In this document: one piece after another, positions 1,920 to 23,952 of the stretch | Position numbering within the stretch: the stretch's first letter is position 1 | Layout: each line of letters opens with the position of its first letter | From: Nitrospinaceae bacterium | GTDB lineage: Bacteria; Nitrospinota; Nitrospinia; Nitrospinales; Nitrospinaceae | DNA: 64,000 bases | Assembly (NCBI GenBank): GCA_024644405.1 | Contig: JAHELC010000006.1 | Location: 1-64,000, forward strand | Reading direction: 5' to 3' | Notes under the pieces: generated by a model | Databases searched by the model: none | What the model was told of the DNA's origin: nothing | The model's input: only the letters and a program-made list of their open reading frames with translations | Translations under genes and position numbers: made by a program

Positions 1920-2603
1920 TTATTGGTCGGCAATTTCGTTAAGGATTTTATCCAGATGCTCACGATCCTCTTTTGTGTAATCATCTTGGGGGCGCGAATC
2001 CAAACGGGTCAAAGCAGAAGTTTGCTCTTTCAATTTTTCCTTCTGATCGGCCAGGCGTTCTTTGATTCCTTCCAGATCGGGTATTGATTGGCGCATTCCC
2101 TTTAAGGAACCGGGCATACTGCGGTTGAATCCGGGCTCCACCTCAACACTTTCCCGGATATCGTCGACCCAATCTTCCAGATAGGGAGCCACCAGGGAAT
2201 CTTCAGTCCAACGGGCATAGGTTTCGTCGAACCACTGCAGGGGAAACATGAAGACAATCATCAGCAGGATTCCCTTGGCCATCCCGAAAAACCCTCCCAG
2301 AAAACGGTCCCATCCTGAAATCGTATGCGTGGAATGCAGGAACTTTTTAATCGCGCGCCCCACCAGGGCAACAACAAGCAGGCTGAAAATAAATAACACG
2401 ATAAAACTAAGAATATGAGCCACCGTTTCTTCAGTAATTACTCCATCAATCAAACCCGCCAAATCCGAATACAGGTTCAAAGCCACCAGATAGGCCACGA
2501 CGATTGCGACCAGGGAAAAGGCTTCCCGTACCATCCCTTTCCAAACGGAATAGAGAACGCTTATACCGATGATAATAAATGCAAAAACATCAAATGAAAT
2601 CAT
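1920..2603 (-). CDS. CvpA family membrane protein
   Basis: A 227-residue protein with about four hydrophobic helices in the first 125 residues, beginning ISFDVFAFIIIGISVLYSVWK, which is the typical CvpA opening (MxxxDxxxxxxxxxxxxxxG). A charged, probably coiled-coil tail of about 100 residues follows. CvpA proteins are inner-membrane proteins first linked to colicin V production and later to envelope stress. The true activity is unknown. The start lies directly after the stop of the lytic transglycosylase gene (one base apart), so translation is probably coupled. Confidence 0.85.
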   Translation of the reverse strand: MISFDVFAFIIIGISVLYSVWKGMVREAFSLVAIVVAYLVALNLYSDLAGLIDGVITEETVAHILSFIVLFIFSLLVVALVGRAIKKFLHSTHTISGWDRFLGGFFGMAKGILLMIVFMFPLQWFDETYARWTEDSLVAPYLEDWVDDIRESVEVEPGFNRSMPGSLKGMRQSIPDLEGIKERLADQKEKLKEQTSALTRLDSRPQDDYTKEDREHLDKILNEIADQ

Positions 2604-2604
2604 C

Positions 2605-5031
2605 TCAATTGTTCCTGACGGTCAAGATACTCTGAAAATCATGGATTCCACCCTGTCCATACAGGGTTTTGTAAATCACATAATTTCTCAGGACTTTTTT
2701 AACATAGTTCCGGGTTTCTTTGTAAGGTATGGTTTCCATGAATTCCAAAGGCTTTAAATGAGAACGGATCTCCATCCACTGTTTGACTTTACCGGGACCG
2801 GCATTGTAAGACGCCAGCGCAAAAATAATATTATCCTCAAAATCGATCAGCAATCCACTCAGGTATTTTACACCCAATTGGATGTTAACTTCAGGTTTTT
2901 TCAGGTCATTTTGGTCGGGAGGTTTTGTTCCCATGGAACGGGCCACTCGCGTGGCGGTGGAGGGAAGGAGCTGCATCAAACCGATGGCCTGGGCGGAGGA
3001 GACCACTTTCTTGTTGAAGGCACTTTCCTGACGCATTAAACCCAGCACCAGATAGGGACTCAAGTTGTATTGAGAGCTTTCCTGTATCGCCTTGTCAATG
3101 TACGGCTTGGGGAAAAGAATTTCTGCCAGGGAAGGCGAAATAGAATCATGACTTTTGTCTCTGGAAATTCCCCAGGACAAACTGATGGCTCTCTGGTATC
3201 CGCCGGCCTTTTTAAACAATTGCGCCATATAATATAAAAACTCCTGATTCCCTTTCTCCTGGGGAATCAACGCAAGCTCTTTCATTCCCATTTCCAGAAA
3301 TCCAATTGAGATGAGTTTTTCCGCCCGGTTTATCCGCTTTCGATTGATATCTCCCAATCCCCATTTTCGTGGAGAGGATTTCTGGATGGTCCGGGGTTCC
3401 AGAAAATTGAGAGGCTGCATGGACATTTCTATTCTTGCGATCATGGCATAAAAATCCATGGGAAATTCTTCCACCAGTTGCTTGAGAAACACGACCCTGG
3501 AATCATAGTGTTCCAGTTGGCGTTCCGTTTCCGCCAACCAGTATAGGGCCGCAGGCCTAAAGTCATCGGGTTCCGGAAAACCGTTGTCCAGGTTTCTGAA
3601 CTTTGCAGGATTGGCGTATTTCAACAACTGATTGAACCTCGCTCTGGCCTCTTCCAACTGGCCAAGCAATCGGTACAGCCAGGGAATTTTGAACTGGGTT
3701 GAAGGCGTGAAATAACCCCAGTTGTATTTTTCCAGGAGTTTTTCGTAATAAACAATGGCTTCCGGGTAACGAAGGCTGTCCTCCTCGATCCTTCCCATAA
3801 AATATAAGGCTTTATGACAGGCCAGGGTTTCGGTGGGATGATTGTCGAGAATCTTTTGATACATCAGCTTGGCGGCATCGGGATATCCGCTTTCCCATAA
3901 CCGACTGGCCAGTTTATTAATATAGCGTACAGGATAAAGATCCACCAAACGATCCATGCCCTCGCTCCATTGGTCCCTCTGAACGTTTTTCAAAATAGCG
4001 CGATTGATATGATTGAAAACCCCTTTAGCGTTTTCATCCCCCGGAAATTCCTTGAGCACTTTTTCGCCATACTCCACAATCTTAGGAAAATCATCGACAC
4101 TCAAAGCGTGATACAGGTTGTCGAAGATTTCATTGTGGGTATCGGGCCACTGGGGAAGCTTCCGGGCCACAGACTTCACCGGAAAGTCATCTTCTTCTCT
4201 TTTGCCAATGAGCAACTGTTTTAACTGCCTGGCGTTGCCATTGAGATCCTCTAAAGTTGCCAGATTATTTTTAAGAAAGGTATGTGCCGCATCTTCGGTC
4301 TGGGTTGAAGAGAAATTGTTTAAAAGATAAATATGAGTATCAGCCGCTTCGTTCAGATCTCCCCCAGCCTCATAAGTTCGGGCCAAGGCCGTGTAAATAT
4401 TTAAATGCGACGCTTTATGATTCGGATATTCCCGCGCCAGAGCATTGTTGTAACTGTTCCAAGCCGCAGGAAAGTCCTCTTTTTTGTAATAAACGTCACC
4501 CAATTGGGTTTCGATCTGCGCCAGAAATTCGGGCACATCTTCATGAAAGGGACTTGAAGGGAAACTTTTGAACAGGTTCATCTGATTTTTAATGGCTTCC
4601 TTCAAATATAAAATTGCCTGATCGAAATTTTCTTCTTGAACGCTCTCTTCCGCCATAGCGCGCAACGCAATGGTCAGAAAATAAATCCTGAAATCCTCCA
4701 GAATAAAATCTTCGTTTATTTCTTCATTTAAAATCTCAAAAGATTTTTTATAGTTTTTTTGCAGCAGATGAAGATAGGAAATACCTAAATGGATCAGGTT
4801 GTTTTGAGTTGGAGACTCCGCCTGATCCAGGGCATCAGTAAATTTTTGCAAAACAAGCTCCCTGTCTTCAGGGCTCAGGTTTTTTAAACTGGGAATTTCT
4901 TCTTTGAATATAAAGTCGGCGGGAAAGGTTTTTCCGGTTCCGAATACATCCAAATGATCGGCAAGCGAGGATGAGGGGCATAGCCCTGAAAGTATCAACA
5001 GAATGAAAAACGATCGTCTAATAATTTTCAT
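2605..5031 (-). CDS. Soluble lytic murein transglycosylase with TPR superhelix
   Basis: 808 residues with the Slt70 plan. An N-terminal signal peptide (MKIIRRSFFILLILSGL, likely cut after SLA) leads into roughly 600 residues of helical TPR-like repeats and a C-terminal SLT domain from about residue 655. The catalytic glutamate is E669 in RQESAF, and the GLMQLLP and ASYNAG motifs follow as expected. It cleaves the MurNAc-GlcNAc bond of peptidoglycan to give 1,6-anhydro ends in the periplasm. A cysteine at the end of the hydrophobic stretch does not make a good lipobox, so a soluble periplasmic form is more likely than a lipoprotein. Confidence 0.93.
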   Translation of the reverse strand: MKIIRRSFFILLILSGLCPSSSLADHLDVFGTGKTFPADFIFKEEIPSLKNLSPEDRELVLQKFTDALDQAESPTQNNLIHLGISYLHLLQKNYKKSFEILNEEINEDFILEDFRIYFLTIALRAMAEESVQEENFDQAILYLKEAIKNQMNLFKSFPSSPFHEDVPEFLAQIETQLGDVYYKKEDFPAAWNSYNNALAREYPNHKASHLNIYTALARTYEAGGDLNEAADTHIYLLNNFSSTQTEDAAHTFLKNNLATLEDLNGNARQLKQLLIGKREEDDFPVKSVARKLPQWPDTHNEIFDNLYHALSVDDFPKIVEYGEKVLKEFPGDENAKGVFNHINRAILKNVQRDQWSEGMDRLVDLYPVRYINKLASRLWESGYPDAAKLMYQKILDNHPTETLACHKALYFMGRIEEDSLRYPEAIVYYEKLLEKYNWGYFTPSTQFKIPWLYRLLGQLEEARARFNQLLKYANPAKFRNLDNGFPEPDDFRPAALYWLAETERQLEHYDSRVVFLKQLVEEFPMDFYAMIARIEMSMQPLNFLEPRTIQKSSPRKWGLGDINRKRINRAEKLISIGFLEMGMKELALIPQEKGNQEFLYYMAQLFKKAGGYQRAISLSWGISRDKSHDSISPSLAEILFPKPYIDKAIQESSQYNLSPYLVLGLMRQESAFNKKVVSSAQAIGLMQLLPSTATRVARSMGTKPPDQNDLKKPEVNIQLGVKYLSGLLIDFEDNIIFALASYNAGPGKVKQWMEIRSHLKPLEFMETIPYKETRNYVKKVLRNYVIYKTLYGQGGIHDFQSILTVRNN

Positions 5032-5187
5032 TAAGGCGTCTTGTTGCAGGGCTATCAGGCGACAACCCCAACCGGTTGTATCCCGATTCCAGAAATACTC
5101 GGCAAAGGATTTCGAGGGGTTCCAGAAATCATTTCCAGATAACCAGTATCAGGCAATCGAATCCCATTCTCAAGTATTTTGCAAGGG

Positions 5188-5694
5188 TTAAACTTTTGAT
5201 TTTAAATAGTTATCGAAAAACAGGTGAAATGTGGAGGTGAATTGGCCGGGATGGTTGAGGACCGACTTTTGGAGGTCGGGGAGCGGCCAGAATCGGCCTT
5301 CACTGATCTCAACGGGATTGATGATGATCTTCAGATCGGTTGTGCATAGAAAGGTTTCGACATGTTCCCAGAATGTTTCCCGGCAGGCGGAAAATTTCAT
5401 GAAAAACAGCAATTCCCCGGAAATTCCCAGCTCTTCCATGAGTTCCCGATGGGCACTGGCCCGGTAGTCCTCGCCGGCATTCACATGCCCCGCCGCCGAA
5501 GAATCCCAGTAGCCCGGGTTTTCATCCTTGGTCAGGGCCCGTTTCTGAAGAAATATCTCTCCCCGGGAATTGAAGACTAGAATATGAACGGAACGATGAA
5601 GCAGGCCTTGCGCATGGACTTCGCCCCGGGTGGCTTGACCTATGACCCGGTCTTCGGTATCCACCACATCAAACAGTTCTGAGGAATCATCCAT
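5188..5694 (-). CDS. Nudix hydrolase
   Basis: 168 residues with a complete Nudix box: G-H-V-N-A-G-E, seven residues, then RELMEELGI. The N-terminal sequence (ELFDVVDTEDRVIGQATRGEVHAQGLLHR, described here by its type) resembles the YfcD/isopentenyl-isomerase-like Nudix group. The substrate, a nucleoside diphosphate linked to some moiety, cannot be told from sequence. I chose the ATG at 5694, which overlaps the TGA of the upstream HPr-fusion gene as TGATG; a TTG three bases earlier is also possible. The overlap implies translational coupling. Confidence 0.9.
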   Translation of the reverse strand: MDDSSELFDVVDTEDRVIGQATRGEVHAQGLLHRSVHILVFNSRGEIFLQKRALTKDENPGYWDSSAAGHVNAGEDYRASAHRELMEELGISGELLFFMKFSACRETFWEHVETFLCTTDLKIIINPVEISEGRFWPLPDLQKSVLNHPGQFTSTFHLFFDNYLKSKV

Positions 5695-7016
5695 CAAGCG
5701 GTTTCCCGCATCGATTTCAGGTAGCTGAGTTCGTTGGGGATGCTGGTGTCCTCGCAGTAATTGTGCTCGGCCAGGATTTTGAGGTCGTCCAAAACGCGCT
5801 TGTCCCCTTCGAAGACTACCGTTTGATACCCCTTATCCGCCACCGCGCCGCCTGCCTGCAGCAGACTCATTACCGAGCGGGCATTGAATTTTTCACCATC
5901 CACAAGCAGGAACGCGTCGGCGTCATAGTTGCGCACGATCAGGGAAATATAGGTCGAAGGACGGGCATGAAATCCTAAAGGCGTGGGAATGGGCAATTCA
6001 TAACGAACGGTCTTGACAAAGTTTTTGAGCAGCTCTTTGCCCAGCAGGTCTCCTTCACGAATATAAAAAATACAGTTATTAAAACAGAAATTCACTATTC
6101 GGCTCAACAGTTCATCTTTGTTGACCAGTGTGGAAATGATGTGTTTGCATTCCCCTTGCCGGATTTCATCCTCATGCCGCTCATAAAAATGAGTCAGCCA
6201 AATGGTGACTTCCAGCAAGTGAAGCGGCATTGAAATGTATCCACGAAAAGTTTTGAGTTCCTCGTATCTTTTCTGAATAGAGGTTCCCTTGATATAGGTA
6301 TCGAATTCGGATTGCACGCTATGGACCAAACTCATGATCATCCGGGCCTTCTTTTCATCGATGATTTCGGGAACGATTCGTTTGAGATCCCCTTTCTTCT
6401 GCTGGACCCGCGCATTTATTTCCTCCATCATGCCGGCCACGTTGCTCATTTTCTCGAACATATCAATGATACGTTCTTCATCTTCCTTAATCTGCTCATC
6501 TTCGGCATTTTTAGGAAGCTGTTTATTCACTTCGACTTCTGAAAACTGGCTCGGGTCAACCGATTCCCTGGAATAGTTCAGCTTGTTTTTTTCGCCGGCG
6601 CGAAGACACTCCTGATACAGATTGAGAATGGATTCATTCAAAAAGTCCAGAATCCCCTGGGCATCTTTATAAAAATTTTCCTTCTGCTCGTCGGAATCCC
6701 GCAGGTTGTAAAAGGGATAACGGTCCAACAGATGTTTGATATAAAAACTTGCAATGACGAGGTTCCGTATCGAAGCCACATATTCGGTAAAAAACGACCA
6801 CGTCTTGTTTTGCCGGGCGCCGTGCTCATCCATGAAGCTTTCAAGAAGCTCCGCTTGCTGGATCAGGTTGGAATAACACTTGCGGTTGGCATCCCGCCGC
6901 TTGTCGGGAAGCGAGGCGAAGGAATTGAAGGTTTTGAAAAACTGGGATCCCGCCACTTCCACCAAAGGAAGAAATTCGTCTTCGGATATGATCTGGATAA
7001 GCGATTTAGGTTCCAA
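5694..7016 (-). CDS. Helical protein with C-terminal HPr phosphocarrier domain
   Basis: 440 residues. The last ~100 form an HPr domain, with phospho-acceptor H350 in GFHARPST and the equivalent of regulatory Ser46 at S381 in ARSVMSLLQAGG. The first ~340 residues are charged and helix-rich, with an acidic stretch near 165-185, and I do not recognise them. HPr normally is an 85-90 residue stand-alone carrier between enzyme I and enzyme II of the sugar PTS. No enzyme I, enzyme II or HPr kinase gene lies in this window. The fusion suggests a regulatory rather than a transport role. Coupled to the Nudix gene by a TGATG overlap. Confidence 0.85.
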   Translation of the reverse strand: MEPKSLIQIISEDEFLPLVEVAGSQFFKTFNSFASLPDKRRDANRKCYSNLIQQAELLESFMDEHGARQNKTWSFFTEYVASIRNLVIASFYIKHLLDRYPFYNLRDSDEQKENFYKDAQGILDFLNESILNLYQECLRAGEKNKLNYSRESVDPSQFSEVEVNKQLPKNAEDEQIKEDEERIIDMFEKMSNVAGMMEEINARVQQKKGDLKRIVPEIIDEKKARMIMSLVHSVQSEFDTYIKGTSIQKRYEELKTFRGYISMPLHLLEVTIWLTHFYERHEDEIRQGECKHIISTLVNKDELLSRIVNFCFNNCIFYIREGDLLGKELLKNFVKTVRYELPIPTPLGFHARPSTYISLIVRNYDADAFLLVDGEKFNARSVMSLLQAGGAVADKGYQTVVFEGDKRVLDDLKILAEHNYCEDTSIPNELSYLKSMRETA

Positions 7017-7064
7017 GGTCGGATTCCATAAAGGACCTGCCGATACAAGCCGGCAGGAAGCGGT

Positions 7065-7607
7065 TCAATTCATCGAAGTCCGGGCGACGAACGATTTGGG
7101 AAGATATTTCATCCAGCTTTCAACATGCGAGGTCGGACCCACGGGAACCACCAATTGGTGGAAATTGAAATTCGGCCGGTCCGGTTTTTTGCCCAGCCTC
7201 ATATTGGCCTCCCGGGCCGTCCGGCTCCCTTTTTTCATGTTACAGGGTTTGCAGGCCACCACCACATTGGTCCAGGTGGTTTTCCCGCCGCGGGATTTCG
7301 GGATGACGTGATCCACGGTCAGTGGATATTCCCGGTCACCGCAGTACTGACAGGTAAAATTATCCCTTCTCAATATATTTTTCTTGCTGAAGGACACATT
7401 TTTTCGCGCCTTGCGCTTGACCAGATTGAGCACACGAATCACCGTGGGCACTTGCAACGACATCGAGGGAGATCGAACCACATAACCGTCGCACTCAATT
7501 TGCTCGGCACGGCCGCTCAGCACCATCACAAGTCCCCGCTTGGCACTGCAAAACTGCAACGGCTCGTAGGAATAATTGAGGATCAATATTTTTAAGGAGT
7601 TCAACAT
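7065..7607 (-). CDS. HNH endonuclease family protein
   Basis: About 180 residues. An N-terminal segment (LILNYSYEPLQFCSAKRG) typical of the stand-alone bacterial HNH group leads to the HNH core: CQYCG, then TVDHVIPKSRGG, then the NVVVACKPCN zinc ribbon half. The four cysteines and the DH/N residues of the nuclease site are all present. Such genes are widespread and usually chromosomal; they are not restriction enzymes by default, and the target is unknown. I chose ATG at 7607; a GTG at 7622 in the same frame is possible, and neither has a clear ribosome-binding site. Confidence 0.88.
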   Translation of the reverse strand: MLNSLKILILNYSYEPLQFCSAKRGLVMVLSGRAEQIECDGYVVRSPSMSLQVPTVIRVLNLVKRKARKNVSFSKKNILRRDNFTCQYCGDREYPLTVDHVIPKSRGGKTTWTNVVVACKPCNMKKGSRTAREANMRLGKKPDRPNFNFHQLVVPVGPTSHVESWMKYLPKSFVARTSMN

Positions 7608-7744
7608 GGTCGATTGATTCACAAAGAAAATCGTACAACTTTGAAAATATAGAGTAAATCTTGTTGATTTTACTCTGACTCTCCTTGACCGTCAACATCC
7701 CCTGTTTCCCCGGATATCTCCCAGATTAGTCGTAAATCTATATT

Positions 7745-9163
7745 TTAAAAAAGGTTACCCACTCCAAAACGACCCTGCGGATCCAGGGATTTTTTGATTT
7801 TCCGTAACTCTCCAAGCGCCTGATCCCCGATCATTTTATGGTAATACTCTTTTTTTAACTTGCCGACACCATGCTCCGCGGAAATAGTGCCCCCCCATTT
7901 TAAAATCTGATCCACCAAAGAGGCATACGTTTCCTGCGCCTGTGACGTCTGGTTCGTATCCGGCAACAAATTAATATGAAGATGATTGTCCCCAATGTGA
8001 CCAAACATAACGAAGTCCAGGCCGCTGCCAGTCAGTTCATCCCGGTAAAACTCCATCATCTTTCGGAAATGCTCGTCGCCCACCGCCATATCCGTACCCA
8101 TCTTCACCCGCCCCAGCCGGGAATTTTCCTCATTGATCATCAGGGGTATCTCGTGGCGAAAGTCATAAAACATTTCGATGTCCTTGGGACCCTGCGCAAA
8201 CCAGGAATCCTCCAATAGAACCTTTTCCGTTTCCAAAAATTCATACCAGGATTCAAGGCAGAGATCGTACTCCTGCTGGCTGGCGACATCCTGTTCAAAA
8301 AAAAGTGCCGCCCGGGCGTTCTCCGGAATGTTGTGGAATTTTTGTTTCAAGCGTTGCAAAGACCGGCGGTCAAAATATTCCAGCGAACACGGAGAAATTT
8401 TTGATTCCCTGGATCCCCGGATTTTCTCCAGCAACTCCCAGCACACTTCCTCCTGTTCCATGAATAGAATGCCGCTCAAAAAATCGGCTGGGGCTTTCAA
8501 AAGTTTCAACGTGCATTCGATAAAAACGCACAGGGTTCCATCCGAACCGATAAATATATCCAGCCAGTCCATCCCCGGTTGGACGAAATACCCCGCCGCG
8601 TTTTTACACTCCGGGCTTTTGAATTTCACAGGAGGAAAGTTTATAGTGGAGCCATCGTCCAAATGCAGAGGCCGGTCAATGGTGTCCCCCCGCCGGACTG
8701 AGGCGGTCCGCCCGTCCGACAACACAATATCCGCTGCAAGCACGAACTGGCGTGTGGTTCCGTATTTATAACTGCGGGCGCCCGAGGCATTGGTGGCCAG
8801 GGTGCCACCGATGGAGGCCAGCCATTCGGTCGGATTGGGGGGATAAAACCAGCCGCTGTTCTTCAGATGGTCATTCAAGTCCTGCAAAGTAACTGCAGGT
8901 CCGACTCGAATGGTACCGTCTGTAACAGAGTCCAGTTTCTTGAACCGTTCCAGGGAAATCACAACGCCGCTCAAAGGAATGCGCGACGCCGTAAGTCCCG
9001 TGCCCGCGCCCGCCAGAGCGACGGGATTTTCATTTTCCTTCAAAAAGGCTACCAACTCCTCGCGGGTTTCCGGAATAATGACCTCACTGGCCCGCCCTTC
9101 AGAAAAGTTTGAGGCGTCTTTGAGATAAGGAGCAATGGTTTCGGGATCGGTTTTTCTAAACAT
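7745..9163 (-). CDS. FAD-binding oxidase/dehydrogenase, GlcD/D-lactate type
   Basis: 472 residues of the VAO/PCMH flavoprotein family. The N-terminal FAD domain includes GAGTGLTASRIPLSG (about 52-66) and GGTLATNASGARSYKYG (about 118-134). The C-terminal cap domain has the FGHIGDNHLHINLLP metal/substrate motif and the final SAEHGVGKLKK. Members oxidise 2-hydroxy acids such as glycolate or D-lactate and pass electrons to quinones or partner proteins. No GlcE/GlcF partners are adjacent, which favours a single-subunit D-lactate or 2-hydroxyacid dehydrogenase. The substrate is undetermined. Confidence 0.9.
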   Translation of the reverse strand: MFRKTDPETIAPYLKDASNFSEGRASEVIIPETREELVAFLKENENPVALAGAGTGLTASRIPLSGVVISLERFKKLDSVTDGTIRVGPAVTLQDLNDHLKNSGWFYPPNPTEWLASIGGTLATNASGARSYKYGTTRQFVLAADIVLSDGRTASVRRGDTIDRPLHLDDGSTINFPPVKFKSPECKNAAGYFVQPGMDWLDIFIGSDGTLCVFIECTLKLLKAPADFLSGILFMEQEEVCWELLEKIRGSRESKISPCSLEYFDRRSLQRLKQKFHNIPENARAALFFEQDVASQQEYDLCLESWYEFLETEKVLLEDSWFAQGPKDIEMFYDFRHEIPLMINEENSRLGRVKMGTDMAVGDEHFRKMMEFYRDELTGSGLDFVMFGHIGDNHLHINLLPDTNQTSQAQETYASLVDQILKWGGTISAEHGVGKLKKEYYHKMIGDQALGELRKIKKSLDPQGRFGVGNLF

Positions 9164-19762: not shown

Positions 19763-20008
19763 ATGGACACAGGCGAAGAAAATAAAACCACCATTGAAGC
19801 CCGGCTCAAGGTATTGAACAAGTCCCTCGTGAGCGAGGAAAATTCGGTTCAATACTATCAAACCCTTCTCGAAAATACCGCTCCGGATACGGATGAAAAA
19901 ATTGGGGAGCGCCGGATGTATGAGGACCTCCAGGCAGAAGAAAGAAAACATGTACAGGTCCTCCGGAACATGATCCAGCTTTGGGAAACCAGGCTTAAAG
20001 CTGTCTAG
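19763..20008 (+). CDS. Small ferritin-like / rubrerythrin-type helical protein
   Basis: 81 residues, mostly two helices. SEENSVQYYQTLLENT (about 24-39) and LQAEERKHVQVLRNM (about 55-69) resemble one helix pair of the ferritin-like fold, with Glu in ExxxxYY and the EExxH pair that usually binds iron. A full ferritin-like site needs four helices, so this would have to dimerise. A GGAAATCAAG ribosome site precedes ATG. It sits directly before the Fur-controlled FTR1 locus, which fits a role in iron handling, though this is inference. No metal-site claim beyond pattern. Confidence 0.6.
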   Translation: MDTGEENKTTIEARLKVLNKSLVSEENSVQYYQTLLENTAPDTDEKIGERRMYEDLQAEERKHVQVLRNMIQLWETRLKAV

Positions 20009-20134: not shown

Positions 20135-20163
20135 TTGACAAGATTCCTTCATTAATATATATT
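20135..20163 (+). promoter_or_regulatory. Sigma-70 promoter of the FTR1 operon
   Basis: TTGACA at 20135-20140 and TATATT at 20158-20163 with a 17-base spacer. The -10 box abuts the Fur-box-like palindrome, as in many iron-repressed promoters. Confidence 0.8.
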
Positions 20164-20182
20164 GATAATCATTCTCATTATT
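20164..20182 (+). promoter_or_regulatory. Putative Fur box
   Basis: GATAATCATTCTCATTATT matches the 19-base consensus GATAATGATAATCATTATC at about 15 positions. It starts at the base after the -10 box, covering the expected transcription start, where bound Fur would block RNA polymerase. A Fur-family gene is at 45504-45932. Confidence 0.7.
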
Positions 20183-20248
20183 AAAATTATTGGGATTAAT
20201 CAAGACCTGAGAATTCCATTAACTGTTTTTAAAAAGCCGAAAGAAACC

Positions 20249-22396
20249 ATGTTTCCCAAAAACAGATTGAAGTTTACGACGGGCTTATTTGCCTTCCTGC
20301 TGGGAATCATTGTGATGTCCCTCCATATCCCAACTCCGGTAGAGTCTCAACCGGGAAAGCTGGAATCCGGCGTCAAGAAAATCGTTATGATGATGAACAT
20401 CGTCAACAAGGAATACCACGAAGGAATTGCGAAAGGGAAAATCATCAATGCTGCGGAATACGAAGAGAGCCAGGTATTTCTGGAGCAGGCGTTTGGCCGT
20501 TATCAGAATCTGACGGAGGGAAAGGCGTCTGAGGGAATCCCGGACGAACTGGCCAGCCGGTTTGTTTCGCTTATTCAGAAAATTAAAAGCAAAGAAGATC
20601 CCAGTGTGATTCACTCCGAAGTCAACGCGATCAATGCCGGAATCCTTAAGAAATTCAACATCCAGCTCAGCCAAACACCCTCCGATCCGGTTTCTCTTGA
20701 AAATGGACGTACCCTCTACGCGAATAATTGTAAGGTCTGTCATGGAATCCAGGGACAAGGGGATGGTCCGATCGCGCCGCAACTGGATCCCAAACCTGCG
20801 GTATTATCCGATCCACAACTCACGGGAGACAAATTTTCCAAACCTTACGATAATTTCCAGATCATCAACGTGGGCATTGCCAATACTGCGATGGTGGGCT
20901 GGGCCGACCAATTTTCCGAAAAGGAATTGTGGGATGTGACATATTTCATTCGGACGTTTTCCAACGAAAATGTGAAGCTTCCGCTTTTGGTTTCCCAGAC
21001 GTCATCCACGGGTATTGAGAAAAACCGCGGAAGTTCGACAAAAAAAATCTTCAGCGAAGTATTTTTATTACTCGATCAAAGTTTGAAGGCTTACCGGGAA
21101 GGCCAGAACCGGGAAGCTTCAGAGTCTGCTTTCGACGCTTACCTGACTTATGAAAAGGTGGAATCGCCTTTAATCACCAAGCGCAAGGAACTCGGCCTCA
21201 AGCTGGAATCTTCTTTTGGCAGACTGCAGGCGGAAATCAAACGGAATGCAGACATCGACCTGGTGGAGAAAGTCGGACAGGGAATCGCCGACGACTTGAA
21301 AGAGGCTCAGCAGGTGTTGACGCAGGAGATTGGGTTCACCGGTTTGTTTATCCAATCCTTCTCGATCATTGTGCGGGAAGGTTTTGAAGCGATTTTGATT
21401 ATCGCGGCGTTGATCACGTTCCTCGTTAAATCCCGCAATCGGGACAAACTGAAAGCCATTTACGTGGGCGTGGCGATCGGGGTCATCGGCAGTTTTATCA
21501 CCGCGTATATCCTTCAGGAAATTCTGGATATCAGTATGTCCAGCCAGGAAATGATGGAAGGAATCATCATGCTGGTCGCGGTCTTGGTTCTGTTTTATGT
21601 CAGCTACTGGCTGGTTTCTAAAATCGAAGCGACCAAATGGCAAAGTTATATCACCGGTAAAATGCAGAAAGCGGTCACCACCGGTAGCGCATTTACCCTC
21701 AGTATGGTTGCCTTTCTGTCGGTATACCGGGAAGGCTTTGAGACCGTTCTGTTTTACAAAGCGCTGTACCTGTACGCCGGGGACACCACCGCCGGGATCA
21801 TACCCGGATTCCTCGCCGGATGTGTCGTTCTGGCAGTTGTCTATTTCCTGATCAACCAATTGGGGATGCGTATCCCGGTAAAATGGTTTTTCGTGGTCAC
21901 CAGTGTATTCCTGTATTACATGGCATTCATGTTCATGGGCAAAGGGCTCCACGAATTGCAAATGGGGGGAGCCTTGAGCATGACTGTCGCCAACTTTGTT
22001 CCCGAAATTCCGTGGCTGGGCATGTACCCGACGTGGGAAACCTTCATCGGCCAAATGATACTCGTGGTGGCCTATGCCGGCGCCTTGATTTATACCTTCG
22101 GGATCAAACAGGAGCGCGCAGCACACGAATTAAAATCAGAGGCCACCCAGATCCAGCAGAATATCACCGTGGTTCACGATCTGGTCGAACACATTTCGCA
22201 TCACGCCAAGCGTTGCGAAATCTTCCTTAAGGATACCCGCGACCAGGACCTTAAGGAATTGTCCCAGCATTTGAAGGAAATCGATTCCAAAGTCCATGAG
22301 TTGTTCGATCAGGTGATCTATTTTGAAAATCGCCTGACGGATGAGTACGATCGCTTGTCGCAACCCATCGGCGCCAAGGAAAAGGATTTGCATTGA
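20249..22396 (+). CDS. Cytochrome c domain - FTR1 iron permease fusion
   Basis: 715 residues from ATG 20249; earlier frame codons lie upstream or across the Fur box. A signal anchor is followed by a helical periplasmic part, a haem c domain (CKVCH at 161-165), another helical stretch, and then an FTR1-type permease with the two REGFE motifs at 376-380 and 494-498 and SSQEMMEG between them. Those acidic motifs bind iron during transport in the FTR1/EfeU family. The haem may oxidise or reduce iron at the entry. The C-terminus is a ~70-residue charged tail with H-D-x2-E-H-I-x2-H-x3-C at about 643-656. A Fur box sits at its promoter and the next gene overlaps its stop. Confidence 0.9.
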
Positions 22397-23952
22397 GATT
22401 CCGGTTTTTCAAAACTTCCCGTGACTTTCACAAATGGACCGGAATTGTCTGCGCAATTTTCATCCTCATACTTTCCGTCAGCGGCATCCTGCTCATGCAC
22501 CGGGATTCCCTGGACCTCGACCAGATAGAAGTTTCCTCCCGATACCTGCCGGATAAATACTTTCACCTGGTCAAAGACAAACTGAAAATCCAATCGATCG
22601 CGGTGAACCCTCAAAACGAAAAAATTATTTTCGTGGGAAGCGGGAATGGATTGTTCCGATCCCAAGACGGAGGGAAAACCTGGCAATCCCTTCACGATGG
22701 ATTGCGTGAGGAAAATATCCGCGTGCTGGCTGTATCCCCTTCCGCACCCCATATGATCTATGCCGGTACCTCTAAGGGTATTTTCTTATCTGAGGATGGC
22801 GGGGACCACTGGACTGACTGGTTCGAGGAATCGTCGGGCCTTTCGAATATGGATATTCAGGACTTGATCATTCATCCCGAAAAACCGGGACACCTGTTTG
22901 CCGCCACATCCGGCGGTTTATTTATTTCTAAGGATGAAGGCGACACCTGGGAACTCGCCTTTGAAGGAAATCCATCCGAGGGAAGCCGTGAAGTGCGTTT
23001 TGTCCGCTTCTCTTCCAAGGGGCGCTCCCTGTATATTGGAACGACCGGTGGAATATTCAAAAGCGCCGATGGCGGCAAACATTGGAACAAAAAATGGCAG
23101 GATGCCCTGCCCTCACCCCTGTCACTGGTTTCTTTGGACACCGATCCTGAATTTATTTATACCGGAACCCCGGAGGGGCTTTACAAATCGTATAATAGGG
23201 GAATCACCTGGGTCCACGACGCGACACCCGACGGAGCGGTGCGCCAATTGGCGGTGGATCCCAAAAACACAACCCATATTTATATGGGAACGGCCCGGCA
23301 CCTATTCATGTCCCCCGATGGCGGGGACACCTGGAATCCCCTGGGCTTTGAAGAAGGCGATGGAAAAACTCTGGACAGCTTGACTCTGGTTCGTTCTTCC
23401 CGGCAATCCTCCCCTACCCTGATTGCCGGCACTTCAACCGGTCTTTATATTTCCATTAACGAAGGACGCACCTGGCAAAAAACCACGCTCGCAGAAACCA
23501 TCCAGCAAAAATCCGGCGGCCATTTGAAAATGGACCTCGTCAAGCTGATGACGGAAATCCATACCGGACGTTTTTTCGGGGATTATGTTTATCTTTTGGT
23601 AGACATTGCCACGGTCGGATTGATGGTGCTGGTCTTTTCCGGGTTCGGCCTGGCTCTCTACCGGAAGCGCATTGCCAAATCCAAACTGGTCAAGAAACAA
23701 ATAACAGAAGAGGAAGCGGTGGACAATCTTATCGATATTCAGGAAACTACGGATGAGTTGTCGCAGGAGAGCGTGGAAATCCACGACATGATCGAGCATA
23801 TCAATTCCCACCTGGCCAAGTGCCGATCGGTTTATATTTCAAAAGAGAAAAAAGAAATCGATAAAATAGGACGGCATATCACCGATTTAGACAAGAAAAT
23901 GCATCATCTGATGGAACGAATCGAGGAGTTTAACAAATTTTCCCAGAACTAG
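22393..23952 (+). CDS. PepSY-like-anchored BNR beta-propeller membrane protein
   Basis: 519 residues. The start is TTG at 22393, overlapping the TGA of the FTR1 gene, with an AAGGAAAAGGA site upstream. One membrane helix (about 15-37, [24 protein letters not shown], of the type that opens PepSY-family proteins) leads to a large periplasmic propeller with repeated SxDGGxxW-like (BNR/sortilin) motifs, for example [41 protein letters not shown] second membrane helix (about 395-417) and a cytosolic tail follow. The tail carries H-D-x2-E-H-I-x2-H-x3-C at 464-477 and aligns without gaps to the tail of the permease. It is likely a partner subunit. Confidence 0.8.

Follow-up and report, generated by a model that had tools for sequence, protein, structure and literature searches.

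The cytosolic tails of two adjoining proteins of a Nitrospinaceae bacterium, an FTR1 iron permease and a PepSY-type membrane protein that carries a periplasmic propeller, are homologous at the sequence level, and the hairpin that they have in common is not private to this pair. On balance, we favour the reading that the tails are copies of one mobile cytosolic metal-binding hairpin found at iron importers, which would be bundled around iron; the module spans 45-70 residues, has a fixed set of His, Asp and Glu residues, and sits on or beside FTR1, FeoB and PepSY-type redox proteins. Our sequence data establish the homology of the tails, the conservation of ligand-type residues and a consistent linkage to iron import, together with a topology predicted from sequence, and we file the hairpin as an undescribed accessory domain of known iron importers.

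The FTR1 operon and its two homologous tails

The window, a stretch of 64,000 nucleotides (contig JAHELC010000006.1), contains at 20249..22396 on the + strand the gene for an FTR1 iron permease of 715 aa, which starts with the ATG at 20249, scores well above the PF03239 cut-off (104.2 bits vs 25.3) and has both expected motifs (REGFEA and REGFET). The protein consists, in order, of an N-terminal helical part, a cytochrome c domain with a CxxCH motif (residues 151-236; 20699..20956, +; PF00034, 45.7 bits, E 1.7e-11), a periplasmic helical part, an FTR1 core of seven TM helices and a cytosolic tail. The REGxE motif residues are invariant among 37 FTR1 sequences, and named records assign the tailed FTR1 to Nitrospina and Nitrospinaceae. 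The second gene (22393..23952, +) starts with a TTG at 22393 that overlaps the FTR1 stop by 4 bases, and encodes a PepSY-type protein of 519 aa with two TM helices, a periplasmic BNR propeller and the second tail (PF03929; BNR/Vps10 matches). Most genomes of the order encode a near-full-length relative of this propeller protein directly 3' of FTR1, and the two genes adjoin, and often overlap, in most genomes.

A Fur-box-like element (TATATTGATAATCATTCTCATTATTA; 20158..20183, no strand assigned) lies 91 bases upstream of FTR1 and matches the Fur consensus at 16 of 19 positions, which none of 100 shuffles reached; most related FTR1 loci have upstream matches of 15-17 of 19, likewise above shuffles. 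A gene at 19763-20008 (+), also upstream of FTR1, encodes a rubrerythrin/ferritin-like protein of 81 aa that Pfam matches weakly (E 0.0016); of the related loci that were checked, about half have it in the same position. The FTR1 core with two REGFE motifs, the CxxCH cytochrome c domain ahead of it and the upstream Fur-box-like site are all common to the cytochrome c/FTR1 family permeases (PF03239; EfeU/Ftr1; FtrABCD and P19 systems). Unlike known FTR1 systems, the permease of the window has a conserved cytosolic hairpin, and the gene that comes next encodes the PepSY-propeller protein, where known systems have P19 or EfeO/B. The plasmid-borne cytochrome c/FTR1 permeases of Proteobacteria give no significant match to the tail.

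Both tails are predicted by AlphaFold2 to form a helix-turn-helix. That of FTR1 (residues ~631-704; 22139..22360, +) is matched by the tail HMM and has its core from His643 to His683 (22175..22297, +), corresponding to H17-H57 in family numbering; that of the propeller protein (residues 442-518; 23716..23946, +; HMM E 2e-31) has its core from His464 to His504 (23782..23904, +), in which H469, H473, H495 and D500 are invariant among 38 sequences. The sequence-only reading had described an ungapped alignment of more than 50 residues with about a quarter identical; the ungapped stretch extends over ~63 columns, and the identity is slightly lower than was claimed (13 identities, 21%). The two motifs that it had named, H17-D-x2-E21-H22-I-x2-H26-x3-C30 and then H48-x4-D53-x-K55-x-H57, do occur in both tails with equal spacing, and its placement of both on the cytosolic side is supported by the topology predicted from sequence.

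With only ~21% identity between the window tails, a chance likeness of two charged helical tails had to be considered, but the comparisons make it so improbable that we give it hardly any weight. The Smith-Waterman score of tail against tail is 110, which was reached by none of 20,000 shuffles (36.0 +/- 6.8, maximum 77), nor by any of 20,000 shuffles that preserved heptad positions (39.4 +/- 7.3, maximum 85), so that the proposed similarity withstood both versions of the test. A profile-profile comparison of nine FTR1 tails with ten propeller tails gave a probability of 97% (E 1.2e-10), and an HMM built from FTR1 tails only scored a median of 34 bits on 34 propeller tails, compared with ~1 bit (maximum 13.5) for heptad-preserving shuffles. 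Low-complexity coiled-coil similarity is ruled out, as is chance, by both kinds of shuffle together with the HMM controls.

The propeller protein as a PepSY-type membrane protein

The propeller protein passes PF03929 (PepSY_TM; 42.6 bits, cut-off 28.8). Its TM1 (22405..22500, +) contains the invariant His13 (H-K-W-x-G) and MHRD, as judged from 38 sequences that include minimal PepSY forms, and its TM2 (23536..23667, +) contains an invariant E-I-H390-T-G-R-F-F-G in the 38-sequence alignment. Between the two TM helices sits the periplasmic BNR propeller (22570..23487, +), which is YCF48/GH74-like (Foldseek: 5oj3, E 1e-12; GH74, E 4e-15). The propeller proteins and the minimal PepSY-tail proteins have in common the invariant H13 (H-x-W-x-G) in TM1 and H390, G392, R393 and G396 in TM2, and the heme-type pair H13 and H390 is invariant across the 38 sequences. 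Mean identity within the propeller proteins is 68% for the tail core, 65-67% for the TM segments and 44% for the propeller.

PepSY_TM proteins such as FoxB bind two hemes on conserved His residues at both membrane sides and reduce ferric siderophores, and their electron donor is unknown (PMC13038864). The PF03929 match, the TM histidines and the iron context are common to the propeller protein and the PepSY_TM iron reductases (FoxB, FpvG, VciB). It differs from them in having two TM helices rather than three or more (PepSY_TM proteins have three to six, with one or more PepSY domains), a propeller in the periplasmic loop, where it takes the place of the PepSY domain, and a cytosolic hairpin. 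Iron assimilation has also been linked to PepSY-like clusters with flavinylated proteins (PMC8238504), and the minimal tailed forms likewise adjoin an FMN-binding protein. Given the PF03929 match, the invariant TM histidines and these precedents (PMC13038864; PMC8238504), the most fitting reading of the protein is that it carries electrons across the membrane, with a propeller on the periplasmic side and putative heme ligands. Its earlier interpretation as a sensor or ferroxidase partner needs to be revised in the light of the same match and histidines and of the YCF48-like propeller between the TM helices.

In one genome (G031; loci L107 and L108) the propeller gene is split, with the N-terminal part 3' of FTR1 and the tailed C-terminal part ~1.05 Mb away. 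Each part adjoins an N stretch; rearrangement at a repeat may be the cause, or else assembly or masking.

Distribution and conservation of the hairpin

The tail motif is kept in ~40 Nitrospinota genomes, and outside Nitrospinaceae the tail profile finds matches in four contexts, namely FTR1, the FTR1 of a second phylum, PepSY-like proteins and proteins linked to FeoB. In G061 the tailed FTR1 lacks the cytochrome c domain, and its neighbours are P19 (PF10634) and a regulator resembling Fur. Tailed FTR1s of the second phylum are found in G245, G438, G691, G697, G699, G700, G703, G714, G715 and G726, several of which share their operon with P19 and a NapH-like polyferredoxin. Tailed PepSY-like proteins of ~210 aa with two TM helices (G072, G073, G075 and G076) are encoded directly 3' of FMN-binding and porin-like proteins; that of G072 scores slightly below the PF03929 cut-off (26.3 bits vs 28.8). 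Locus L185 (G706; 2423-8451) has the operon-like order Fur, FeoB, DtxR-like, PepSY-tail, porin and FMN-binding, and looks like a reductive iron uptake cluster with a two-TM PepSY carrier. Stand-alone hairpin proteins of 70-90 aa are encoded downstream of feoA-feoB in G504, G544, G550, G637, G684, G771 and G915, so that feoB lies upstream in all seven cases found; the G915 case was found later and served as a blind test, and the G550 hairpin is partly decayed. At the latter locus (L187; 1837-2345, - strand) there are two adjoining partial copies in different frames, as if the gene had been duplicated and then decayed. All hairpin contexts found belong to iron import or to a redox cluster nearby, and the hairpin is rare outside the groups listed (2 of 241 genomes in one class). 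Small cytosolic DUF2325-like proteins recur beside the PepSY-tail and FTR1-P19 clusters (L103:2148-2459; L153:1413-2125), accompanied by porin-like proteins of a single type.

Within FTR1 the tail core has the highest mean pairwise identity of any segment (83%, compared with 74% for the TM core and 65% for cytochrome c), and H643, H652 and H674 are invariant among the 37 FTR1s. Across FTR1, propeller, PepSY and FeoB-linked members, H22, H26, H48, D53 and H57 are near-invariant, the replacements in the core being D22 in G245 and G438, D26 in G504 and G771, and N53 in G771. C30 and K55 are features of some subgroups; C30 was rejected as an essential ligand, being absent from PepSY, FeoB-linked and some FTR1 members. 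The propeller tails of a marine subgroup (L097-L099) no longer have H17 or some of the core ligands (YDMANHINTHLIKC...), and the FTR1 of the same operon keeps the full motif.

The AlphaFold2 models of the single chains, in which confidence is modest for the tails (pLDDT about 57-74), place helices at 596-661 and 666-704 of FTR1 and at 442-480 and 483-518 of the propeller protein. The first FTR1 tail helix continues TM7, so the module is probably attached rigidly at the cytosolic exit of the permease. Along the modelled hairpin H26 would face H48, H22 would face D53, and H17 and E21 would face H57. Foldseek with the FTR1 model returned nothing informative.

The expectation that no described domain of this kind would be found was borne out by Pfam and NCBIfam, neither of which gave a credible family for the tails, and by the open-access literature, in which we found no description of the module. 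A sequence search of the PDB gave no solved relative, the matches being coiled coils, whether designed or natural, and comparable helical regions; those to UvrB (PDB; G200) fall in a helical region of that protein and were judged false positives. Hemerythrin binds its metal through five His, one Glu and one Asp with HxxxE, HxxxH and HxxxxD spacings, and this tally and these spacings resemble those of the hairpin. Membership of that family (PF01814) was nevertheless rejected, since the two tails gave no match up to E 1, PF01814 was not among the matches listed (25 families) for 13 diverse members at E 0.1, and each tail has two helices rather than a four-helix bundle in one chain. Ferritin families in Pfam did not match the tails, and NCBIfam DpsA gave a weak match below the cut-off (E 0.011). 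FeoC is a winged-helix protein, whereas the FeoB-linked protein is a helical hairpin, and one such protein (L155:4733-5050) had no FeoC match in Pfam or NCBIfam. The two are alike in being small, cytosolic and encoded after feoB, FeoC having been proposed as an iron sensor or stabiliser (PMC8749426). EncFtn is an antiparallel two-helix hairpin that bears His and acidic residues and, as a dimer, makes a di-iron site (PMC5012862); it is like the tail module in architecture but differs in its ligand set and its lack of a tie to transporters, and no sequence similarity was found.

Pairing of the tails and proposed function

We infer both metal binding and tail pairing from the sequences and their genomic contexts. 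The sequence-only reading had suggested that the tails bind metal through their histidines, acids and one Cys; the idea is strengthened by the residues kept across FTR1, propeller, PepSY and FeoB-linked members, which are of ligand types, and is weakened for Cys30 and Lys55, which are confined to subgroups. Two or more hairpins that meet would make up a helical bundle, with iron bound by His and carboxylate side chains where the importer opens to the cytosol, by analogy with the EncFtn hairpins, which bind iron at their dimer interface (PMC5012862). The partners may be FTR1 with FTR1, a stand-alone hairpin with itself or, in Nitrospina, FTR1 with the propeller protein, and the bundle may take over the iron that is imported, or act as a sensor of cytosolic iron with feedback on transport. 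The propeller protein, as an electron carrier of the PepSY type, would dock to the permease via its own tail, which could couple the reduction or oxidation of iron to its passage. The Fur-box-like sites upstream of FTR1 and the higher identity of the tail core relative to the permease core (83% vs 74%) count in favour of an iron module, and the core-residue replacements and the modest confidence of the tail models count against it.

Metal may, however, not be involved at all: the hairpin could be a dimerisation or assembly coiled coil in which the His and Asp residues are structural, forming buried polar layers. The AlphaFold2 hairpins, and the coiled coils and similar helical regions that were the sole PDB sequence matches, fit such a role, but invariance is mostly confined to ligand-type residues, four to five His with Asp and Glu in fixed spacing would be unusual for a coiled coil, and the tie to iron importers is consistent, so that we regard it as unlikely. 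More improbable still is a role of the hairpin in heme binding, or in passing electrons from a donor in the cytosol on to the heme of PepSY and, in FTR1, in reducing incoming Fe3+. The transfer of electrons through two His-ligated hemes in PepSY_TM proteins, with the donor unknown (PMC13038864), and the invariant heme-type histidines of the propeller protein would leave room for such a relay; the tail, however, has neither CxxCH nor a known redox motif, and the hairpin also occurs alone beside FeoB, which carries Fe2+ and requires no reduction.

Whether, on the preferred reading of a metal-binding hairpin, the two tails of the operon pair with each other is a separate question, to which the genomes give a mixed answer. 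Among FTR1-bearing Nitrospinota genomes 48 of 56 have the tail, which is at odds with the refuting outcome named earlier, its absence from every close homologue. The propeller gene is present in 40 of these 48 and in none of the eight tailless ones (Fisher p 9e-6, phylogeny ignored), the eight including one FTR1 cut by a contig end (G058) and three genomes with other FTR1 types (G008, G010 and G011). Four genomes, all of them lacking the propeller, have a shortened or tailless FTR1 at the same syntenic site: the protein breaks off immediately ahead of the tail core in G034 and in G001, a member of the same genus, and has no tail in G065 and G013. Such forms at this chromosomal site imply that transport as such does not depend on the tail. 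At the G001 locus (L193; 743-2653) it appears as if one deletion took both the tail core and the propeller gene. The FTR1 tail is kept with the propeller gene gone in at least six genomes (G015, G024, G035, G036 and G054, at the same site, and G019), and G061 is a further tailed FTR1 with no propeller protein, so hetero-pairing is not required.

The tails may thus not touch, each serving its own protein in homodimers of FTR1 or of the propeller protein, with a common domain because both proteins work on iron or electrons at one membrane. We give this account, which is compatible with metal binding, not far short of an even chance; FTR1 tails with no propeller, PepSY tails in genomes that lack FTR1 (G072, G073, G075 and G076) and the stand-alone hairpin beside FeoB all argue for it, whereas the propeller tail never occurs without an FTR1 tail (again ignoring phylogeny) and the two genes adjoin and often overlap. 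The pairing proposed earlier is plausible, with indirect support from the co-occurrence, but it is not obligatory: the primary assembly of the hairpin is probably homomeric, and heteromeric assembly is possible in Nitrospina. The fuller proposal, an undescribed metal-dependent docking and sensing module common to three unrelated classes of membrane protein, FTR1, FeoB (as a stand-alone subunit) and PepSY proteins, which in Nitrospina would couple the electron carrier to the permease by pairing of the two tails around iron, is put forward tentatively, as something we would sooner doubt than assume.

The receipt of iron and the throttling of its import on the cytosolic side of FTR1 and FeoB are poorly understood, and the hairpin is a concrete, expressible candidate for this step. 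It would give otherwise unrelated importers a common part, and would offer a handle on the iron uptake of Nitrospina, which are marine nitrite oxidisers.
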